Of a stretch of DNA of 5,103 nucleotides, positions 225 through 5,103 are shown one piece after another. The position numbers and the translations under genes were made by a program. How positions within the stretch are numbered: position 1 is the first letter of the stretch; every line of letters begins with the position of its first letter. The stretch comes from Candidatus Roizmanbacteria bacterium CG11_big_fil_rev_8_21_14_0_20_36_8 (GTDB taxonomy: Bacteria; Patescibacteriota; Microgenomatia; UBA1406; GWC2-37-13): NCBI GenBank assembly GCA_002796045.1, contig PCVM01000090.1:779-5881 (forward strand). Direction: 5' to 3'. Under the pieces are notes generated by a model that saw only the letters and a list, made by a program, of their open reading frames with translations, was not told the origin of the DNA and did no database searches.

Positions 225-1175
225 ATGAAAAACAAAACAATATTGGTAACAGGCGGTACGGGTTTTGTTGGGGCGCATCTTGTCGAATCTTTGATAAAAC
301 TTGGCGCCAATGTCATAGTTGTTGACATTAATTTAGATAAAAAGTCATATTTTTATACCCAAAAACTTGACCTGCAATCGACAGTAATAAATCTAGATAT
401 TTGTAATTATAGTAAATTACTGAATCTGATCGAAAAATATAAGGTTGAATTTATCTTCCATCTTGCTGCACAGGCCCTTGTCGATGCGGCTTATCGAGAT
501 CCAAAACATACGTTAGTGAATAATATTGTTAGTACCATAAATATTCTTGAGGCAGTCAGAATAAATCCTGAGATTTGTGGTCTAGTAGTCGCATCATCTG
601 ACAAGAGTTATGGAAAGTTACACAAAGATAAATATATTGAGACCGATCCCCTATCTGGCGACCATCCATACGATACGTCAAAATCGGCAACAGACTTGAT
701 AACGACTGCCTATTGTAAAACTTATGGCATCCCAGCAGTCGTTACAAGATTCGGAAATATTTACGGCGAGGGCGATCCTAATATGTCACGTATCATTCCT
801 GGGATCATGAATTCAATAATCAATGATCAAACACTTGAAATTCGAAGTGACGGAACATTTATACGCGATTACCTCTACGTCAAAGACGTTGTGGTGGGGT
901 ACATTTTACTAGCACAAAATATCGATAAAGTTCGTGGCCAGGCATACAATTTCGGATCAGATGATACTTTTTCAGTTTTGAAACTCATTGAAGAAGTCGG
1001 AAAAACACTCGGGAAAGAAATCCCTTATAAGATACAAAATACTGCCAAAAACGAAATCCCCTATCAGTCACTTAATTTTGATAAGATTCAATCAGCTATC
1101 GGCTGGAAACCAAAAGAAACAGTTTCTTCAACTGCAAATAGGATTTTGGATTGGTATGCTAAGCAAATTAGATAG
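225..1175 (+). CDS. rfbG: CDP-glucose 4,6-dehydratase-like NAD-dependent epimerase/dehydratase (extended SDR)
   Basis: Encodes 316 aa. The frame is open from 177, but the start at 225 puts the NAD-binding GGTGFVG (G10, G13, G16) at the usual place and lies one base after the rfbF stop. D34 follows the second strand of the Rossmann fold, HLAAQ is at 79-83, the catalytic SDK is at 125-127 and Y149-x3-K153 completes the active site. The SDK motif and RFGNIYGEGD fit sugar-nucleotide 4,6-dehydratases. With rfbF upstream, the likely reaction is CDP-glucose to CDP-4-keto-6-deoxyglucose. It is shorter than classical RfbG (about 350-360 aa), so a related nucleotide-sugar dehydratase is possible. No good Shine-Dalgarno sequence is placed before the start (a GGAG lies 14 bases away), so coupling to rfbF is likely. 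Its last 20 or so codons recur twice downstream. Confidence 0.82.
   Translation: MKNKTILVTGGTGFVGAHLVESLIKLGANVIVVDINLDKKSYFYTQKLDLQSTVINLDICNYSKLLNLIEKYKVEFIFHLAAQALVDAAYRDPKHTLVNNIVSTINILEAVRINPEICGLVVASSDKSYGKLHKDKYIETDPLSGDHPYDTSKSATDLITTAYCKTYGIPAVVTRFGNIYGEGDPNMSRIIPGIMNSIINDQTLEIRSDGTFIRDYLYVKDVVVGYILLAQNIDKVRGQAYNFGSDDTFSVLKLIEEVGKTLGKEIPYKIQNTAKNEIPYQSLNFDKIQSAIGWKPKETVSSTANRILDWYAKQIR
1101..1157 (+). repeat. Dehydratase-tail repeat, copy A (inside intact rfbG)
   Basis: This 57-base stretch encodes GWKPKETVSSTANRILDWY. It matches copies B (1980-2036) and C (3433-3489) at 52 of 57 bases each by eye. Copies A and B share an uninterrupted 32-base run covering TVSSTANRIL. Copy A is the only one attached to a complete gene; after this point it ends with AKQIR rather than LK. 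Confidence 0.93.
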
Positions 1176-1189
1176 TTTTTTCTTTAAAT
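1170..1189 (+). repeat. Degenerate copy of the site that flanks the second HEPN/MNT pair
   Basis: This segment straddles the rfbG stop codon. It matches the 3' end of the second MNT gene (2903-2922) at 17 of 20 bases and includes a shared TTCTTTAAAT. It lies at the same distance from tail copy A as the better copy (2048-2073) lies from tail copy B, so gapless alignment of A and B runs through it. The similarity is short and AT-rich, so common origin is plausible but not certain. Confidence 0.4.
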
Positions 1190-1221
1190 GTACCAATTAC
1201 TACTGTAATCATCTGGGTTAG

Positions 1222-1246
1222 ATGACATATTTTCATATCATTTTTT
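1222..1246 (+). terminator. Possible weak terminator between rfbG and hepT
   Basis: ATGACATAT (1222-1230) can pair with ATATCAT (1235-1241) if two bases bulge out, and six T follow. An alternative, mutually exclusive stem pairs TCATCT (1209-1214) with AGATGA (1220-1225). Either would serve the plus-strand rfbG transcript and overlaps the hepT stop on the other strand. The stems are weak. Confidence 0.25.
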
Positions 1247-1588
1247 GAATGTACTTATAACTTCATGAATTTGCTCGTAAAGTTCTGGAATATATGAAGA
1301 AATAATATTCCATATGATTGTGATATCAATATCAGCGTAGTCGTGCGCAACAATATTTCGAAGGTCAATTATCTTTCTCCATGGGATCTCTTTATGTGAA
1401 TCTCTAAAGGAAGCGCTAAGATTATTTGCAGCCTCCCCGATAATTTCTAGATTTCTAACAACAGCGTCATGATCCCATTCATCTTTGAAAAAATCTTCTT
1501 GAGAGTGTTTTTCAATATAGTTTTTGAGTTTATCAATAGCGTCTTGCATGTGAAGAAGATATGCAAGATTATCTCGCTTTTGTCTCAT
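1238..1588 (-). CDS. hepT: HepT-like HEPN (DUF86) toxin of an MntA-HepT pair
   Basis: Encodes 116 aa, a normal length for DUF86 HEPN proteins. RNLEIIGEAA (45-54) and IPWRKIIDLRN (68-78) are family signatures. R77-NIVA-H82-D-Y84 is the complete RX4HXY motif: R and H form the RNase site of HEPN toxins, and in studied MntA-HepT (type VII) systems the Tyr is the residue AMPylated by the antitoxin. All key residues are present, so an active toxin is expected, probably cutting tRNA or other RNA. Its start overlaps the mntA stop by four bases (ATGA, 1585-1588), giving strict coupling with the antitoxin translated first. It converges on rfbG, with 62 bases between the two stop codons. Confidence 0.9.
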   Translation of the reverse strand: MRQKRDNLAYLLHMQDAIDKLKNYIEKHSQEDFFKDEWDHDAVVRNLEIIGEAANNLSASFRDSHKEIPWRKIIDLRNIVAHDYADIDITIIWNIISSYIPELYEQIHEVISTFKK

Positions 1589-1857
1589 AAAATTGGTCGT
1601 TGTGAATCTAAAATACTCTTTTTAAGATATTTGTTTATTCCATTAAAACTGAGTAGATCGACTTTTTTTTTGAGTGTATCTTCAAGTTCGTGCTTCAGTT
1701 CAATATAAGATATCCCCATTTTTTTCGGGGGTTCAAATAAGATGTCCACGTCACTATTGCTATCAAAAGTGCTATTTGCGTATGATCCAAAAATTGACGC
1801 CTTTTTAACACCATATTTGATCAAAATTGGCTTTATAGTTTCTTGAATATCTTTCAT
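1585..1857 (-). CDS. mntA: MntA-like minimal nucleotidyltransferase antitoxin
   Basis: Encodes 90 aa with the minimal polymerase-beta-type nucleotidyltransferase core. G24-S25-Y26-A27 is followed by D36-V-D38, the metal-binding pair, and D67 in KKVDLLS is the probable third carboxylate. Proteins of this type paired with HepT transfer AMP onto the Tyr of the toxin RX4HXY motif and neutralise it. The gene lies directly upstream of hepT and overlaps it by four bases. All catalytic residues are visible, so the antitoxin looks functional. The start at 1857 is supported by an extended -10 box ending exactly six bases before the ATG, and no Shine-Dalgarno sequence is seen. Confidence 0.88.
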   Translation of the reverse strand: MKDIQETIKPILIKYGVKKASIFGSYANSTFDSNSDVDILFEPPKKMGISYIELKHELEDTLKKKVDLLSFNGINKYLKKSILDSQRPIL

Positions 1858-1863
1858 ATATTT

Positions 1864-1872
1864 ATTTTACCA
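1864..1872 (-). promoter_or_regulatory. Extended -10 promoter of mntA-hepT, probably leaderless
   Basis: On the minus strand the sequence reads TGGTAAAAT, an extended -10 (TG-N-TAAAAT). Six bases separate it from the mntA ATG, which would make the A of ATG the first transcribed base. No convincing -35 box is seen (GGGGAT at 17-base spacing), which is usual when TGN is present. Confidence 0.55.
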
Positions 1873-1892
1873 CAAATCCCTACTACATCCCC

Positions 1893-2045
1893 AAAATAAG
1901 CCATCTTTTAATTCTAAGCGAGGCAAAAAAAGAAGGAATAACAATTTACTCAAATTGATCAAAAATCAAAAAAGAAATTGGCTGGGAGCCAAAGGAGACA
2001 GTTTCTTCAACTGCAAATAGGATTTTGGAGTGGTATTTGAAATAA
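1893..2045 (+). pseudogene. Fossil 3' end of an rfbG-like dehydratase gene (tail B)
   Basis: In one frame this reads KISHLLILSEAKKE, then seven codons, a TGA at 1956-1958, then SKIKKEIGWEPKE and a tail ending ILEWYLK with TAA at 2043-2045. It aligns without gaps to the end of intact rfbG, where AKNE, DKIQSAIGWKPKE and ILDWY lie at the same spacing. From 1980 on identity is very high; upstream only scattered residues match, including AK-E, N, KI and IGW. There is no start codon or N-terminal domain, and the in-frame TGA breaks the frame, so it cannot be a working enzyme. The left limit is soft and runs towards the mntA promoter. Confidence 0.8.
1980..2045 (+). repeat. Dehydratase-tail repeat, copy B
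   Basis: This 66-base stretch matches copy C (3433-3498) at 64 of 66 bases, including the stop codon, and matches copy A at 52 of the first 57. The two B/C differences both fall on third codon positions and are silent (AAG/AAA for Lys, TCT/TCA for Ser). Confidence 0.93.
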
Positions 2046-2047
2046 TC

Positions 2048-2073
2048 AAGACGGTCTATTCTTTAAATTAATC
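2048..2073 (+). repeat. Direct repeat flanking the second HEPN/MNT pair, left copy
   Basis: This 26-base stretch starts two bases after the stop of tail B and matches 2901-2926 at 25 of 26 bases (the single difference is C2052 against T2905). In the right copy the same bases encode the last codons of the MNT gene. The left copy may be the fossil end of another MNT gene, or a target-site or recombination duplication. Confidence 0.85.
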
Positions 2074-2175
2074 CATTTCATATCATCAATCCTTAAACCT
2101 TTCAGGATATTTTCGAAGATCATTTTCTCTAGTTATCAATCCAATATAGAACTTTTGGATATAATTCTAATCATT

Positions 2176-2184
2176 TGATACAAT
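2176..2184 (+). promoter_or_regulatory. Extended -10 promoter of the second HEPN/MNT pair, probably leaderless
   Basis: TGATACAAT is an extended -10, with exactly six bases (TAGCAT) before the ATG at 2191; TTGGAT at 2155-2160 is a weak -35. A perfect TATAAT also lies at 2160-2165 and could drive a short leader, but no Shine-Dalgarno sequence lies between it and the ATG. Which box is used cannot be decided by eye. Confidence 0.5.
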
Positions 2185-2190
2185 TAGCAT

Positions 2191-2586
2191 ATGGAAATTA
2201 AGGAAAGTGACAAATTACAAAAAGCGTGGGTAAAGAGCGCTGATGAAGATTTAAAAACAGCTAATGATTTATTTAAGTTAGGTAGATTTAGCGGTTGTCT
2301 ATTTTTCTGTCATCTCGTGATTGAAAAAACTTTAAAAGCGATCTATATTAAAGTTAATGATACTTATCCGCCTCCTACTCATAAATTAATCAGTCTCGCC
2401 AATTTGTCAAAATTAGAATTAACTAAGGAGCATAAATTATATTTGACCGAGATAACCACCTTTAATGTTGAAGCGCGATATGATATTTTTAAAGAAAAAC
2501 TTTATAAAAAAGCCACAAGTAAATTTACTAGAAAATATCTTGACATAACTAAAGAATTATTTGTTCAATTTAAAAGATTACTATGA
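2191..2586 (+). CDS. HEPN domain protein (PF05168-like), partner of a nucleotidyltransferase
   Basis: Encodes 131 aa, all predicted helical. The signature of this HEPN branch is visible: SADEDLKTANDL (16-27), CLFFCHLVIEKTLKAIYI (36-53), PPTHKL (61-66) and EARYD (94-98). The canonical HEPN RNase motif RX4-6H is absent: neither R96 nor the nearby arginines has a correctly placed His. It may therefore not be an RNase, or may act through another site; some HEPN proteins of this branch are thought to act as binding partners of the nucleotidyltransferase. The stop overlaps the MNT start by four bases (ATGA, 2583-2586), the HEPN-first order opposite to the mntA-hepT pair. A TA role is inferred from pairing and is less secure than for hepT. 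Confidence 0.85.
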   Translation: MEIKESDKLQKAWVKSADEDLKTANDLFKLGRFSGCLFFCHLVIEKTLKAIYIKVNDTYPPPTHKLISLANLSKLELTKEHKLYLTEITTFNVEARYDIFKEKLYKKATSKFTRKYLDITKELFVQFKRLL

Positions 2587-2924
2587 TCGATAAAATAATT
2601 TTAAAAAAACAAGGGATATTAAATGAAATCGAAGATTATATTAAGGTGTTAATAAAGAATAAAATAAATCCAGAAAAAATAATTCTTTATGGTTCCTACG
2701 CCAAGGGGAAAGCTCACCAATATTCAGATATTGATATAGCAGTCATTTCTGACCAGTTTGGAAAAGATGAGATCGAGGAGTTGATGAATTTAGCAAGGCT
2801 GACTATCGATGTGTCAGATCGGATTGAAGCCATTCCTCTGACAAATGAAAACTTAAAATTGAAATACCATTCCCTAATTGGCGAAATAAATAAATATGGG
2901 AAGATGGTCTATTCTTTAAATTAA
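2583..2924 (+). CDS. Minimal nucleotidyltransferase (MNT) partner of the second HEPN protein
   Basis: Encodes 113 aa. GSYAKGKA (37-44) followed by D49-I-D51 is the nucleotidyltransferase active site, and E82 in IEAIPLT is the likely third acidic residue. The fold belongs to the polymerase-beta superfamily, and the protein probably modifies its HEPN partner or an RNA with a nucleotide. It starts inside the stop of the HEPN gene, so the pair is one translational unit. Its last seven codons (MVYSLN and stop, 2904-2924) lie within a 26-base direct repeat found again just left of the pair at 2048-2073, so the native C-terminus may have been replaced or supplied at an insertion junction. It is only distantly similar to the other MNT in this window. 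Confidence 0.87.
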   Translation: MIDKIILKKQGILNEIEDYIKVLIKNKINPEKIILYGSYAKGKAHQYSDIDIAVISDQFGKDEIEELMNLARLTIDVSDRIEAIPLTNENLKLKYHSLIGEINKYGKMVYSLN

Positions 2925-2926
2925 TC
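2901..2926 (+). repeat. Direct repeat flanking the second HEPN/MNT pair, right copy
   Basis: Matches 2048-2073 at 25 of 26 bases, offset 853 bases. It covers the 3' end and TAA of the MNT gene plus two bases beyond it. Confidence 0.85.
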
Positions 2927-3005
2927 TCATCTAGGGTTTAATTACCTGTCGCTCTACGTTGGGGAGTATCATTAACAATATATATTTTTAAAGCTCGAAA
3001 TTGGA

Positions 3006-3072
3006 AAATGTTTTAAGTATGAATAAAGTATTTTAATAATTTCATAAAATTTTAAGTATGATTAAAACATTT
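3006..3072. repeat. AT-rich nested repeats between the MNT gene and hicB
   Basis: AAATGTTTTAA (3006-3016) and TTAAAACATTT (3062-3072) form a perfect 11-base inverted repeat. Between and across these arms, TTTTAAGTATGA occurs twice (3011-3022 and 3050-3061), and ATTTTA (3030-3035) faces TAAAAT (3045-3050). It could be an operator, a termination region for the MNT transcript, or chance in AT-rich DNA. The rest of the 246-base gap (2925-3170) shows no gene. Confidence 0.4.
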
Positions 3073-3105
3073 AGAATGTGAGTCGCTTAGAAAGCACATA
3101 GTTGA

Positions 3106-3123
3106 GCCATTAGTAATTATGGC
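3106..3123. promoter_or_regulatory. Inverted repeat upstream of hicB, possible operator
   Basis: GCCAT and ATGGC form a 5-base inverted repeat around 8 bases, in otherwise AT-rich DNA, about 33 bases upstream of the hicB -10 box. TA operons are often autoregulated at such sites, but this HicB lacks an obvious DNA-binding domain, so the role is uncertain. Confidence 0.25.
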
Positions 3124-3155
3124 GGAAAAAATATATCAAAAAGAAAAATTTATAC

Positions 3156-3161
3156 TATAAT
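3156..3161 (+). promoter_or_regulatory. -10 box of hicB
   Basis: A perfect TATAAT lies nine bases before the hicB ATG, predicting an mRNA leader of only two or three bases. No -35 of note and no Shine-Dalgarno sequence are visible. Confidence 0.5.
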
Positions 3162-3170
3162 AATACATAT

Positions 3171-3386
3171 ATGAAAAAAGTAAAAAATATTTTAAAAGAA
3201 ACATCAGCCTTAGTTTGGAAGGAGAAAGATCTTTTTGTTGCGAAATCTTTGGAGGTAGAAGTCGCAAGTCAAGGTAAAACGAAAAAAGAAGCTTTAGAAT
3301 TATTTTTTGAAGAAGAATTATCTGCGCCAAAATTATTTCCTTATAAAGATTTATCCCTAGAAAAGCTAAACATTGCTTATGCCTAA
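3171..3386 (+). CDS. HicB-like antitoxin, short form, partner toxin gene broken
   Basis: Encodes 71 aa. ALVWKEKDLFVAKSLEVEVA (13-32), SQGKTKKEALELFFEE (33-48) and a C-terminal KLNIAYA match the short HicB family: a partial RNase-H-like fold that blocks HicA mRNA interferases. No C-terminal helix-turn-helix or ribbon-helix-helix domain is present, as is common in short single-domain HicB. The neighbouring hicA start overlaps the end of this gene by eight bases (ATG at 3379, stop at 3384-3386), the expected hicBA arrangement, but hicA breaks off after about 18 codons. The antitoxin therefore appears orphaned here. It could persist by inertia or act on a HicA encoded elsewhere. No frame damage is visible in it. 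Confidence 0.78.
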   Translation: MKKVKNILKETSALVWKEKDLFVAKSLEVEVASQGKTKKEALELFFEEELSAPKLFPYKDLSLEKLNIAYA

Positions 3387-3498
3387 GCTATACTCCGCAA
3401 GAGAAGTACTTTTTATCAATAAAATAGTTTTTGGCTGGGAGCCAAAAGAGACAGTTTCATCAACTGCAAATAGGATTTTGGAGTGGTATTTGAAATAA
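3379..3498 (+). pseudogene. Truncated hicA fused in frame to a dehydratase tail (39 aa chimera)
   Basis: An open frame of 39 codons plus stop. It starts MPKLYSAREVLFINKIVF, which resembles the N-terminus and first helix of HicA/YcfA-type toxins, and it overlaps the hicB end by eight bases as hicA normally does. At 3433 it passes in frame into GWEPKETVSSTANRILEWYLK, the C-terminus of the rfbG-like dehydratase (tail copy C). The HicA catalytic His, expected soon after this point in a GSH-type motif, is missing, so no toxin activity is expected. The junction falls near TTTTTGG, where a HicA GF codon pair and the tail could share a few bases. Whether the chimera is translated is unknown; signals for hicB translation would carry ribosomes into it. 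Confidence 0.75.
3433..3498 (+). repeat. Dehydratase-tail repeat, copy C
   Basis: Matches copy B at 64 of 66 bases and copy A at 52 of the first 57. Homology stops abruptly at the left, where hicA sequence begins, and the copy ends at a TAA that lies within a terminator-like hairpin. Confidence 0.93.
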
Positions 3499-3516
3499 GC
3501 AAGATATTGCTTATTT
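3493..3516. terminator. Hairpin shared by two converging reading frames, likely terminator
   Basis: AAATAAGCAA pairs perfectly with TTGCTTATTT around a GATA loop, a 10-base stem. In the plus direction it is followed by TATTTAAT, giving a U-rich end. It contains the TAA of tail C (3496-3498), and its last base is the last base of the glycosyltransferase stop codon read from the other strand. It probably ends the hicB-side transcript and may work weakly in the other direction. Confidence 0.6.
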
Positions 3517-4451
3517 TATTTAATGTTGATCTTATTTCGTAAAATGTGCGTTGGGCGATCTTTTGCTTCTTCGTATATTCTTGCGATATATTCGCTTATT
3601 ATTCCAAGAATAAAAAATAATATTCCAAATAAAAATAGCATTAAAAGCAATATTGATGTTATTCCTGGATTCACCCTGCCTTCAATAGCAAAAAGGATAA
3701 GGTAATATATTATCAGGACGAACGAGAATATTGTCATAATAATACCTGTATAAGTAACAAATCTAAGTGGCAAGTAGGAAAAAGAGAAGAAGGCGTTTTT
3801 TGCAACTCTTGCAACTGTAATAAAATCAGCTTTAGATTTTCCAGCGACTCTATTTACTCTGTTGAACTCGACGCCTGACTGTTTGAAACCAGTCCAAACT
3901 ACAAGCCCTCTTAAATATTTATTTTGTTCAGGCATGTTATTCACAACTTCATAAACACGTCTGTCCATCAGGCGAAAATCAGACACATTTTCAGGAAATG
4001 AGTCATGCGTCGCCATATTGAGGAGCTTATAAAACAAGATTGAGCTGATATTTCGTACAATTCCAGCTGTTCTCTTCTTAACAACTCCATAGACTATTTC
4101 ATATCCCTCTTCCCACTTAGCAATAAATTTTTTTACTACTTCAATAGGTTCCTGCATATCAGCCATCATCACCACACACGCATCACCTTTAATGTATTTT
4201 AGTCCGGCAGCTATACCACCATCACACTCAAAATTCCGAGAAAGTTGGAGTACTTTAAATCGTTTATCTTTTTTTGCATATGTAGATAGTAGTTCGTATG
4301 AGTCATCTGTTGAGCCGTTCTCAACAAGCATTATTTCAAAATCATATGATTCGTTTTTTTCAATAAATGTAGCAAGTTCTTTAAGAAGATGTGGAATACT
4401 TTCACTCTCGTTGTATACTGGGATTACGAAAGAAATCAATTTTTTTGACAT
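3516..4451 (-). CDS. Family 2 glycosyltransferase, DPM1/GtrB type, membrane anchored
   Basis: Encodes 311 aa, typical for polyprenyl-phosphate glycosyltransferases. The GT-A domain starts at once with SFVIPVYNE (7-15), then VENGSTDDS (43-51) and ADMQEP (97-102), which aligns with the usual DADLQDP metal-binding region but has Met in place of the first Asp. FRLMDRRVYEVV (159-170) and NKYLRGLVVWTGF (177-189) are strong GtrB/DPM1 signatures. Two membrane helices follow, about 233-257 and 263-288, with a short basic cytoplasmic tail. The likely role is transfer of a sugar from a nucleotide donor to undecaprenyl phosphate at the inner face of the membrane for surface glycan assembly. The sugar cannot be read from sequence. 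It diverges from the transketolase gene with only 17 bases between starts. Confidence 0.9.
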   Translation of the reverse strand: MSKKLISFVIPVYNESESIPHLLKELATFIEKNESYDFEIMLVENGSTDDSYELLSTYAKKDKRFKVLQLSRNFECDGGIAAGLKYIKGDACVVMMADMQEPIEVVKKFIAKWEEGYEIVYGVVKKRTAGIVRNISSILFYKLLNMATHDSFPENVSDFRLMDRRVYEVVNNMPEQNKYLRGLVVWTGFKQSGVEFNRVNRVAGKSKADFITVARVAKNAFFSFSYLPLRFVTYTGIIMTIFSFVLIIYYLILFAIEGRVNPGITSILLLMLFLFGILFFILGIISEYIARIYEEAKDRPTHILRNKINIK

Positions 4452-4457
4452 TTAAAG

Positions 4458-4463
4458 TATTAT
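4458..4463 (+). promoter_or_regulatory. Possible -10 box of the transketolase gene
   Basis: TATTAT lies five bases before the transketolase ATG at 4469 and overlaps the opposite-strand -10 of the glycosyltransferase. No matching -35 is seen at the normal spacing. It fits the pattern of the other starts in the window but is the weakest of them. Confidence 0.3.
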
Positions 4464-4467
4464 ATCA
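4459..4467 (-). promoter_or_regulatory. Extended -10 promoter of the glycosyltransferase gene, near-leaderless
   Basis: On the minus strand the sequence reads TGATATAAT, a perfect extended -10. It ends seven bases before the ATG, so the leader would be about one base. The upstream contacts lie inside the first codons of the divergent transketolase gene. Confidence 0.6.
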
Positions 4468-4468
4468 A

Positions 4469-5103
4469 ATGCGTACAAGCAAAAACCTCGGTGAACTGAA
4501 GATATTGGCAAAATCTATACGCAAGAACGTAATAGAGATATTAGTTCCAAGTGTTTCACATCACATAGGATGCTCTCTTGGGATTATAGAAATATTAACT
4601 GTTTTGTATGGCAATGTAATGAAGATATTTCCAAAAGATCCTAAAAATGTGGACAGAGATATTTTTATTTTAAGCAAAGGCCATGGCGCTGTCGCACTCT
4701 ACTCTACTTTATATAATTTAGGGTATTTTAAAAAAAAATTATTGATGAGCTATGATGCTGAAGGCACGATCATTCCAGAGCATGCGAGTACAAATGTTCC
4801 TGGAGTTGAAGTATCAACAGGCTCCCTTGGTCACGGTCTACCCATCGGGCTTGGATTTTCATTTTCATTTCTTAGAGATGATAAGAAAAATAAAGTATTC
4901 GTACTTATGTCTGACGGAGAATTAAATGAAGGTTCAAACTGGGAAGCGATACAGTATGCCGGTCACCATAAAGTAAACAATTTAACAATAATTATTGATA
5001 AGAATAATTTCCAAGGATTATCTGACACAAAATCAGTAATTGATTTAGATCCACTAGATGCAAAATTTAAAGTATTTGGATGGAATGTAATTGAGGTTGA
5101 TGG
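4469..5103 (+). CDS. Transketolase, N-terminal subunit (3' end outside window)
   Basis: 211 codons are visible and the frame stays open to the right edge. The region is the thiamine-diphosphate-binding half of a split transketolase: SHHIGCSLGIIEILTVLY (30-47), LSKGHG (68-73), STGSLGHGLPIGLG (116-129), then SDGELNEGSNWEA (148-160) and IIDKNNFQG (175-183), the pyrophosphate and metal-binding motif. The usual first Gly of GDG is Ser148. His31/His32, His72 and His122 sit where cofactor and substrate histidines are expected. Split enzymes need a C-terminal subunit, normally the next gene, which would lie outside. Such pairs occur both in central metabolism and in glycan clusters. The start at 4469 gives a usual N-terminus and lies 17 bases from the divergent glycosyltransferase start. 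Confidence 0.9.
   Translation, partial: MRTSKNLGELKILAKSIRKNVIEILVPSVSHHIGCSLGIIEILTVLYGNVMKIFPKDPKNVDRDIFILSKGHGAVALYSTLYNLGYFKKKLLMSYDAEGTIIPEHASTNVPGVEVSTGSLGHGLPIGLGFSFSFLRDDKKNKVFVLMSDGELNEGSNWEAIQYAGHHKVNNLTIIIDKNNFQGLSDTKSVIDLDPLDAKFKVFGWNVIEVD

Follow-up and report, generated by a model that had tools for sequence, protein, structure and literature searches.

How do toxin-antitoxin (TA) genes come to be strung out between copies of the 3' end of an ordinary metabolic gene? The question is raised by a stretch of 5,103 nucleotides (nt) from Candidatus Roizmanbacteria bacterium CG11_big_fil_rev_8_21_14_0_20_36_8 (contig PCVM01000090.1, positions 779 to 5,881 of the forward strand; hereafter the window), in which rfbG, encoding a CDP-glucose 4,6-dehydratase-like protein, is followed by two orphan copies of its own 3' end (termed tails) and by TA cassettes lying between the copies. 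To our knowledge, it is an open question how chromosomes come to be populated by TA modules where transposases and integrases are lacking. From comparisons of this locus with those of its relatives we consider it moderately probable that the array was built by homology-facilitated illegitimate recombination, which would furnish the gene with the tail of a donor and displace its former tail downstream.

Three copies of one gene end

The 3' end of rfbG occurs three times on the plus strand, as copy A within the gene (1101-1157) and as orphan copies B (1980-2045) and C (3433-3498). Copy A agrees with B and with C at 52/57 positions each; B and C agree at 55/57 over the stretch equivalent to A and, counted by eye from the letters, at 64/66 over their full length. 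The best match of A among 30 block-shuffled sequences reaches 32/57, so that recount and shuffles alike uphold the three same-orientation copies, and the identities of 52/57 and 64/66, of a preliminary description made from the letters alone. At E <= 0.001 the three copies are the only matches in the assembly (851,598 bases, 66.87% complete); the exact tail pattern had no match in the genome contigs, the tail region had none in a plasmid search, and an Rfam scan of the window gave none at gathering score. The gene and its tails consist of dehydratase sequence, and the toxin genes are separate from the exchanged 3' end.

The intervening modules largely agree with that description. The mntA-hepT pair placed between A and B is recognized by Pfam (PF01934, PF18765), as is the HEPN/nucleotidyltransferase (MNT) pair placed between B and C; the hicB named beside the latter is also present, although with a 7-codon deletion and accompanied by a cut-off hicA that had gone unmentioned. 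On sequence, then, the window holds two putative type VII TA modules, each an adjoining pair of HEPN toxin-like and MNT antitoxin-like genes, and a third cassette without the complete hicA beside hicB that defines a type II HicAB module. Tail B lies where it had been placed, but its homology to rfbG begins earlier, at 1959, immediately 3' of the stop codon of a truncated MNT gene. Just beyond it (2048-2073), 26 nt from the 3' end of the second MNT gene are repeated, matching at 25/26 positions (best of 200 block shuffles, 19/26), and tail C lies 21 nt 3' of the hicA fragment, in the same frame. As had been predicted, a simulated join of A to C removes 2332 bases and leaves a single open frame with a single stop. 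The terminator proposed next to tail C, at 3493-3516, folds as a hairpin at 3491-3518 that overlaps the stop codon of the tail (-11.8 kcal/mol on the plus strand, -8.5 on the minus strand); the folded stretches after A and B reach -1.3 kcal/mol at best. A separate inverted repeat, GGCTGGGAGCC, reads as a terminator-like hairpin on the minus strand of tails B and C (1978-1992, 3429-3447) and is absent from A.

A gene that carries a foreign end

The clearest evidence of exchange comes from a relative (genome G045, locus L042; identical to Ca. Roizmanbacteria contig PFTH01000098.1), in which rfbG is followed by AbiEi and AbiEii, an rfbG tail of about 40 codons and a reversed AbiEii/AbiEi pair. 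The AbiE pair, a type IV TA module, is recognized by PADLOC (AbiEi, 2.1e-29; AbiEii, 3e-31) and by Pfam (AbiEii, 7.6e-26), and the locus is an independent case involving another TA family than those of the window. Along the body of this rfbG, the gene designated G107a ranks first or second in similarity among 22 genes in five intervals, with 70-81% nucleotide identity; over the last codons the identity falls to 56%. The displaced tail, in turn, matches G107a at 121/147 positions, the best of 23 genes. Past a shared block of 15 codons, the displaced tail and the gene's own tail match G107a at 54/72 and 42/75, G046 at 53/69 and 40/67, and G107b at 56/70 and 47/75, respectively. Because the displaced tail, unlike the gene's own, matches the kin of the gene body, the gene in G045 carries what by these comparisons is a foreign tail, with its old tail lying downstream. 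This is the polarity expected of insertion with tail replacement, which would leave the foreign tail on the gene and the old one beyond the insert. The two tails have a 53-nt block in common, at 87% identity.

The window itself suggests tail exchange weakly. Over the 21 nt that precede GGCTGG, tail B matches the rfbG of a sister species (G001, same genus) at 19/21 positions and the window gene at 11/21 (sign test, 9 to 1, p 0.02); the 39 bases before this stretch match at 30/39.

The sister species and loci without TA genes

In G001, an rfbG 80% identical to that of the window is followed by a complete MNT gene, an rfbG-type tail, and orthologues of the second HEPN and MNT genes (82 and 88% identical); beyond these lie four genes on the opposite strand, the last of which is the orthologue (77%) of the GT2 glycosyltransferase gene that converges on the array in the window. 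The junction between MNT gene and tail B is common to both genomes, from which we infer that it predates their separation and that, in the lineage of the window, the greater part of the MNT gene subsequently gave way to mntA-hepT.

Of 43 rfbG loci surveyed, all but L046, L126 and L127 extend for 2 kb or more past the gene, which leaves 40. TA status was taken from lists of open reading frames (ORFs), supplemented by Pfam for three small ORFs near the gene, and an orphan tail was defined as a match above 30 bits lying outside long ORFs, so that weaker or in-ORF matches were dropped, among them those in L112 (9.2 bits) and L053 (8.2 bits), both antisense to long ORFs. A TA block directly follows rfbG in three of the 40 loci and is missing from the other 37; an orphan rfbG tail is present at all three TA sites and at one of the 37 TA-free sites (L085, considered below). 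In four TA-free loci (L036, L087, L112, L113) the end of rfbG abuts a convergent GT2 gene 35-36% identical to that of the window, which provides the empty type of site that the preliminary description had called for. Since tail C and its hairpin occupy the same rfbG/GT2 junction, tail C is probably the original end of rfbG. The accumulation of cassettes with tail exchange, suggested at the outset, thus finds support in the layout of G045, in measurable exchange and in these empty-type sites.

The alternative then offered, a decayed tandem array of dehydratase paralogues with TA modules inserted among the remains, fares poorly, and we regard it as very unlikely. Three of 21 relatives' loci do show, by tblastn, a second, distant dehydratase/epimerase gene directly after rfbG, and the orphan tail of L085 is nearer to the gene of another species (61/90) than to its own (51/90). 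The second genes, however, are just 26-32% identical to rfbG, too divergent to have left a 91% identical tail, and a tail scan of 47 loci revealed no second close dehydratase downstream, where full-length copies in relatives had been named as a sign of such decay. It is TA sequence, not 5' parts of rfbG, that precedes the orphan tails of the window and G045, and a scan of 42 rfbG loci for gene fragments recovered 3' pieces of rfbG and no 5' piece.

Other genes as anchors

Relatives of the HEPN protein of the window were sought in 373 genomes of the class, giving 51 matches in 37 genomes, that of the window included. We examined 40 HEPN regions, which account for 43 of the 51 matches; the window and G001 were treated separately, and six weaker matches were left out. 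TA cassettes followed by the 3' end of a neighboring gene, which the preliminary description had proposed to seek elsewhere in the genome, occur in relatives (G045, L168 and L185). One genome (G317) has two such loci. In L168 the 3' end of a full-length polysaccharide-type ABC ATPase gene recurs downstream as three orphan copies, and AbiEii-like, HEPN/MNT and HepT/MNT genes lie between them. In L185 a gene for a 712-residue protein without Pfam match is likewise followed by three orphan tails. Between these lie a CopG-like/ParE-like pair (weak matches), an HTH/Gp49 pair of the HigBA type and a HEPN/MNT pair; one more HEPN/MNT pair is found past the last tail. In L194 (genome G319) the anchor gene, which from its sequence we take to be ftsH, precedes a DUF4143 ATPase gene and one orphan ftsH tail, within which the ATPase gene has its stop codon; another DUF4143 gene and then a HEPN/MNT pair lie farther on. 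With the window and G001 taken as a single case, tails thus occur at five separate sites and belong to four unrelated genes. The orientation of TA genes varies within the arrays.

Integrative elements typically insert at gene 3' ends and bring a replacement tail. Site-specific elements that use and restore a gene end as their attachment site, the recombinase having been lost or acting in trans, would be a possible source of such tails, and tails in tandem do resemble stacked elements. The orphan tails of rfbG, however, share no fixed core, starting at AKNEIP, SKIKKE or GW, and the anchors are unrelated genes. No integrase was found among the ORFs run through Pfam, which were those of the window (in keeping with the preliminary description), L042, L168 and L185, the rest of the genomes not being searched. 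We give this explanation very little credence, hardly more than a slim chance.

Background frequency of gene fragments and repeats

A scan for displaced fragments of genes of at least 150 codons, which discards opposite-strand, region-edge and weak matches and pieces inside other ORFs of at least 150 amino acids, recovered no orphan C-terminal copy among 707 genes in 940 kb of another genome of the genus (G006); four C-terminal matches in the joined G006 contig lay inside other ORFs of that size and were discarded by the same rule. In the 40 HEPN regions (232 genes) it recovered six C-terminal copies (L168, L185, L194) and no N-terminal copy with the low-complexity filter off, and two and none with the filter on; the latter setting misses the L185 tails, and either setting misses one L168 tail. 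The 39 TA-free rfbG loci gave one C-terminal and two N-terminal copies. These counts supersede a looser scan (four C-terminal and no N-terminal copies in HEPN loci, seven and six in the 42 rfbG loci) that included opposite-strand, edge and weak matches.

Direct repeats of 35-260 nt enclose 12 of the 36 HEPN pairs having at least 1 kb on each side (nine loci), as compared with 122 of 4000 random centers in TA-free rfbG loci (matches in 9 of 35 loci) and 183 of 4000 centers in HEPN regions away from TA genes (matches in 6 of 37). The Fisher p of 7e-10 overstates the contrast because the centers are treated as independent. Apart from gene tails, these repeats are intergenic, of unclear nature or copies of genes: those of L161-L163, L181, L184 and L197 were not counted as gene tails, and that of L177 was rejected as a gene duplication. 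Such settings give some substance to the view that tails were duplicated first, by replication slippage or microhomology, and that TA genes arrived later by unrelated routes: intergenic repeats around other HEPN pairs indicate that repeats and TA genes meet in several ways, and the tail of L085 stands without TA genes. This order of events would leave unexplained why in G045 it is the gene, not the orphan, that bears the foreign tail, and we consider it improbable.

In L161 (G174:C15), a layout first noticed in L133, three HEPN/MNT pairs and what are presumably a HicAB-like pair and a RelE-like gene are separated by repeats of about 70-175 nt that contain the palindrome-like TCCACCCTCCAGGTGGA, and the whole resembles a cassette array with intergenic repeats. 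In L191 (G046:C24) a 161-bp direct repeat (5271-5430 and 6443-6603, 96% identical) flanks a HEPN/MNT pair, the contig ending in the second copy, and in L188 (G144:C33) a 48-66 nt repeat occurs five times along 8.4 kb, with two copies behind HEPN/MNT pairs.

Proposed assembly and retention of the arrays

Orphan tails begin at differing codons of the parent gene and run to a stop codon, and at the joints examined (tails B and C of the window, G045, ftsH) cassette sequence lies 0-21 nt from the tail or overlaps it. Some of these joints are illegitimate in appearance: hicA is cut after about 11 codons, an MNT stop codon abuts tail B, and a DUF4143 stop codon falls within the ftsH tail. Tails and joints of this kind fit a predicted process in which one end of the incoming DNA would pair by homology while its other end would be joined illegitimately. 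In the sequence of events that we favor, incoming DNA bearing rfbG and a TA module would pair with the conserved tail of the resident rfbG; the gene would keep its body, stay open and gain a different tail, an outcome that appears clearly in G045 and weakly in the window; and the far end of the incoming DNA would join the resident tail without homology. Repetition of these steps would generate the arrays observed. The tail repeats would also allow cassettes to be looped out by RecA, an event presumably penalized where it removes a working antitoxin, so that TA cassettes may persist where other inserts vanish.

It is possible, though we would sooner doubt it, that these arrays represent a more general recombinase-free cassette system. 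In such a system the 3' end of an ordinary gene would accompany TA modules as they move, and the tail would be an expendable landing pad whose use leaves the gene intact. The tail would be exchanged with every new arrival, and addiction would stabilize the otherwise unstable repeats, so that arrays grow. If so, any gene with a conserved end could serve as a TA landing pad.

A number of observations weigh against recombination with tail exchange as the origin of the arrays. A single crossover with a circle would give a similar anatomy: integration of the Campbell type, by ordinary RecA, of a circle that combines a TA module with part of the anchor gene would leave copies of the shared block on either side of the insert. 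The block common to the two G045 tails is as expected of such an event, and variable TA orientation likewise speaks for it; yet it requires circles each furnished with the right gene fragment, and the truncation of hicA and the stop of the DUF4143 gene within the ftsH tail resemble illegitimate ends, so that we rate it as rather unlikely. The exchange signal in the window is confined to 21 bases, and over the following 57 bases A is as close to the G001 gene as B is (45/57 and 46/57). Tail B of the window is closer to that gene (46/57) than to the tail B of G001 (39/57), so that simple inheritance of the tail together with its junction does not account for it; A, B and C may have undergone gene conversion. 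Mosaic tests are of low power because the tails are short, and for the ABC ATPase of G317 no relative was close enough for comparison.

Other points bear on the link between tails and TA genes. Gene tails flank just three of the 12 repeat-enclosed HEPN pairs (two in L168, one in L185; two loci). The cargo at ftsH is a DUF4143 ATPase gene and no TA pair, and L085 (G056:C143) is a TA-free locus with a dehydratase-type orphan tail that is open for 31 codons. Since the L085 tail is TA-free and the ftsH cargo contains no TA pair, gene tails are not exclusive to TA modules. Readings of L085 as a third rfbG case and as a decayed tail were both rejected; since the 31 codons of its tail are uninterrupted and its own rfbG (51/90) is no nearer to the tail than others are (best 61/90), it stands as a TA-free exception of uncertain origin. 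At positions 2798-3071 of that locus, a copied 3' end of the next gene (3050-4573, presumably PEP-carboxylase-like; 116/122 nt) runs into the dehydratase-type tail in another frame, with non-TA genes around it. The hicBA cassette of the window is broken and yet retained, and together with the DUF4143 cargo and L085 it weighs against retention strictly by TA addiction.

Relation to known systems

Integron arrays consist of cassettes in series with repeated elements between them, often including TA modules, and the present arrays share the serial cassettes, the intervening repeats and the TA content. They differ in that no integrase occurs among the window ORFs run through Pfam (the contig measures 6,989 bases, so a distant one is possible) and in that each repeat derives from the coding 3' end of the gene upstream, the repeats as a whole coming from four unrelated genes and not from one attC family, a distinction drawn with no attC model run. 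Integrative elements at the 3' ends of protein genes leave a replacement tail at the insertion and the old tail on the far side. Insertion at a gene end, replacement tail and distal old tail are all found here; the differences are that no recombinase is seen in the ORFs run through Pfam, that there is no fixed core, and that the inserts hold one or few genes.

HepT/MntA modules are known as free-standing units. The two adjacent HEPN and nucleotidyltransferase gene pairs of the window resemble this type VII TA system (PMC7641770), and what is new is the genomic layout with copied gene tails.

Homology-facilitated illegitimate recombination has been proposed for effector-immunity arrays of the Vibrio type VI secretion system (T6SS) and hypothesized for strings of orphaned Rhs 3' regions (PMC5361080); contact-dependent inhibition (CDI)/Rhs systems provide a related comparison (PMC3150448). 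Those arrays have a constant 5' part, an exchanged 3' part and old pieces displaced downstream in a string, and the new module lies beside the gene, with anchor homology at one end only; the loci examined here resemble them in layout and would, on the proposed mechanism, share the one-ended homology. A constant body, an exchanged 3' end and an old end downstream are found together in G045 and, over 21 bases, in the window. In the Rhs/T6SS arrays it is the exchanged 3' end that encodes the toxin, and the genes kept are those for immunity; the present loci are anchored by genes for a sugar dehydratase, an ABC ATPase, FtsH and the 712-residue protein, and the modules between tails are, unlike those of Rhs/T6SS, mostly stand-alone TA genes.

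Among literature titles and abstract openings, most subscription journals being outside reach, we found none that describes a layout in which copied 3' ends of an adjacent gene stand between TA cassettes. The arrays would constitute a record of events, each orphan tail marking a joint and the new tail of the gene a trace of the donor. If the proposal is correct, it offers a testable route by which TA genes could accumulate in reduced genomes, through DNA uptake and a single homologous end, and the C-terminal ends of ordinary enzymes would be exchanged as a by-product.

Features of the window

Table 1. Genes, gene fragments and hairpin of the rfbG array (window coordinates)
Feature	Position	Strand	Evidence
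rfbG, anchor gene, CDP-glucose 4,6-dehydratase-like; now ends in tail A	225..1175	+	PF01370 1.7e-52; TIGR02622 205.7 bits, below its cut-off of 278.45
hepT, HEPN RNase toxin-like, cassette 1, reverse orientation	1238..1588	-	PF01934 1.3e-28; NCBIfam HepT 49.9 bits, below its cut-off of 60
mntA, nucleotidyltransferase antitoxin-like, cassette 1	1585..1857	-	PF18765 1.8e-14; NCBIfam MntA 48.9 bits, below its cut-off of 60
Orphan MNT gene 3' end, 60 bases, 19 codons and stop	1899..1958	+	Alignment to L035 (G001), translation, Pfam of the G001 gene; complete at same place in G001
Tail B, orphan rfbG 3' end, from MNT stop to own stop	1959..2045	+	Same MNT/tail junction in G001 (L035)
26-nt copy of second MNT gene 3' end	2048..2073	+	25/26 match
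HEPN gene, cassette 2	2191..2586	+	PF05168 8.6e-18; G001 orthologue 82% identical
MNT gene, cassette 2	2583..2924	+	PF18765 2.8e-13; G001 orthologue 88% identical
hicB-like antitoxin gene of the cassette 3 remnant; 7 codons shorter, in frame, than two homologues through a deletion	3171..3386	+	Best library match DUF7387, below cut-off
hicA toxin gene start, about 11 codons, then cut off	3379..3411	+	Two complete relatives match HicA_toxin PF07927
Tail C, orphan rfbG 3' end; 17 nt before stop of convergent GT2	3433..3498	+	Comparison with copies A and B; A-to-C join
Hairpin, terminator-like, between convergent genes	3491..3518	.	Folding, -11.8 kcal/mol (+), -8.5 (-)
GT2 glycosyltransferase, convergent neighbor of array	3516..4451	-	PF00535 3e-25; related GT2 abuts rfbG in four TA-free loci

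The name hicB was assigned because a hicA-like ORF follows the relatives of this gene. Its 7-codon deletion falls at an EAL-type repeat and, with hicA cut off, leaves a broken TA module.

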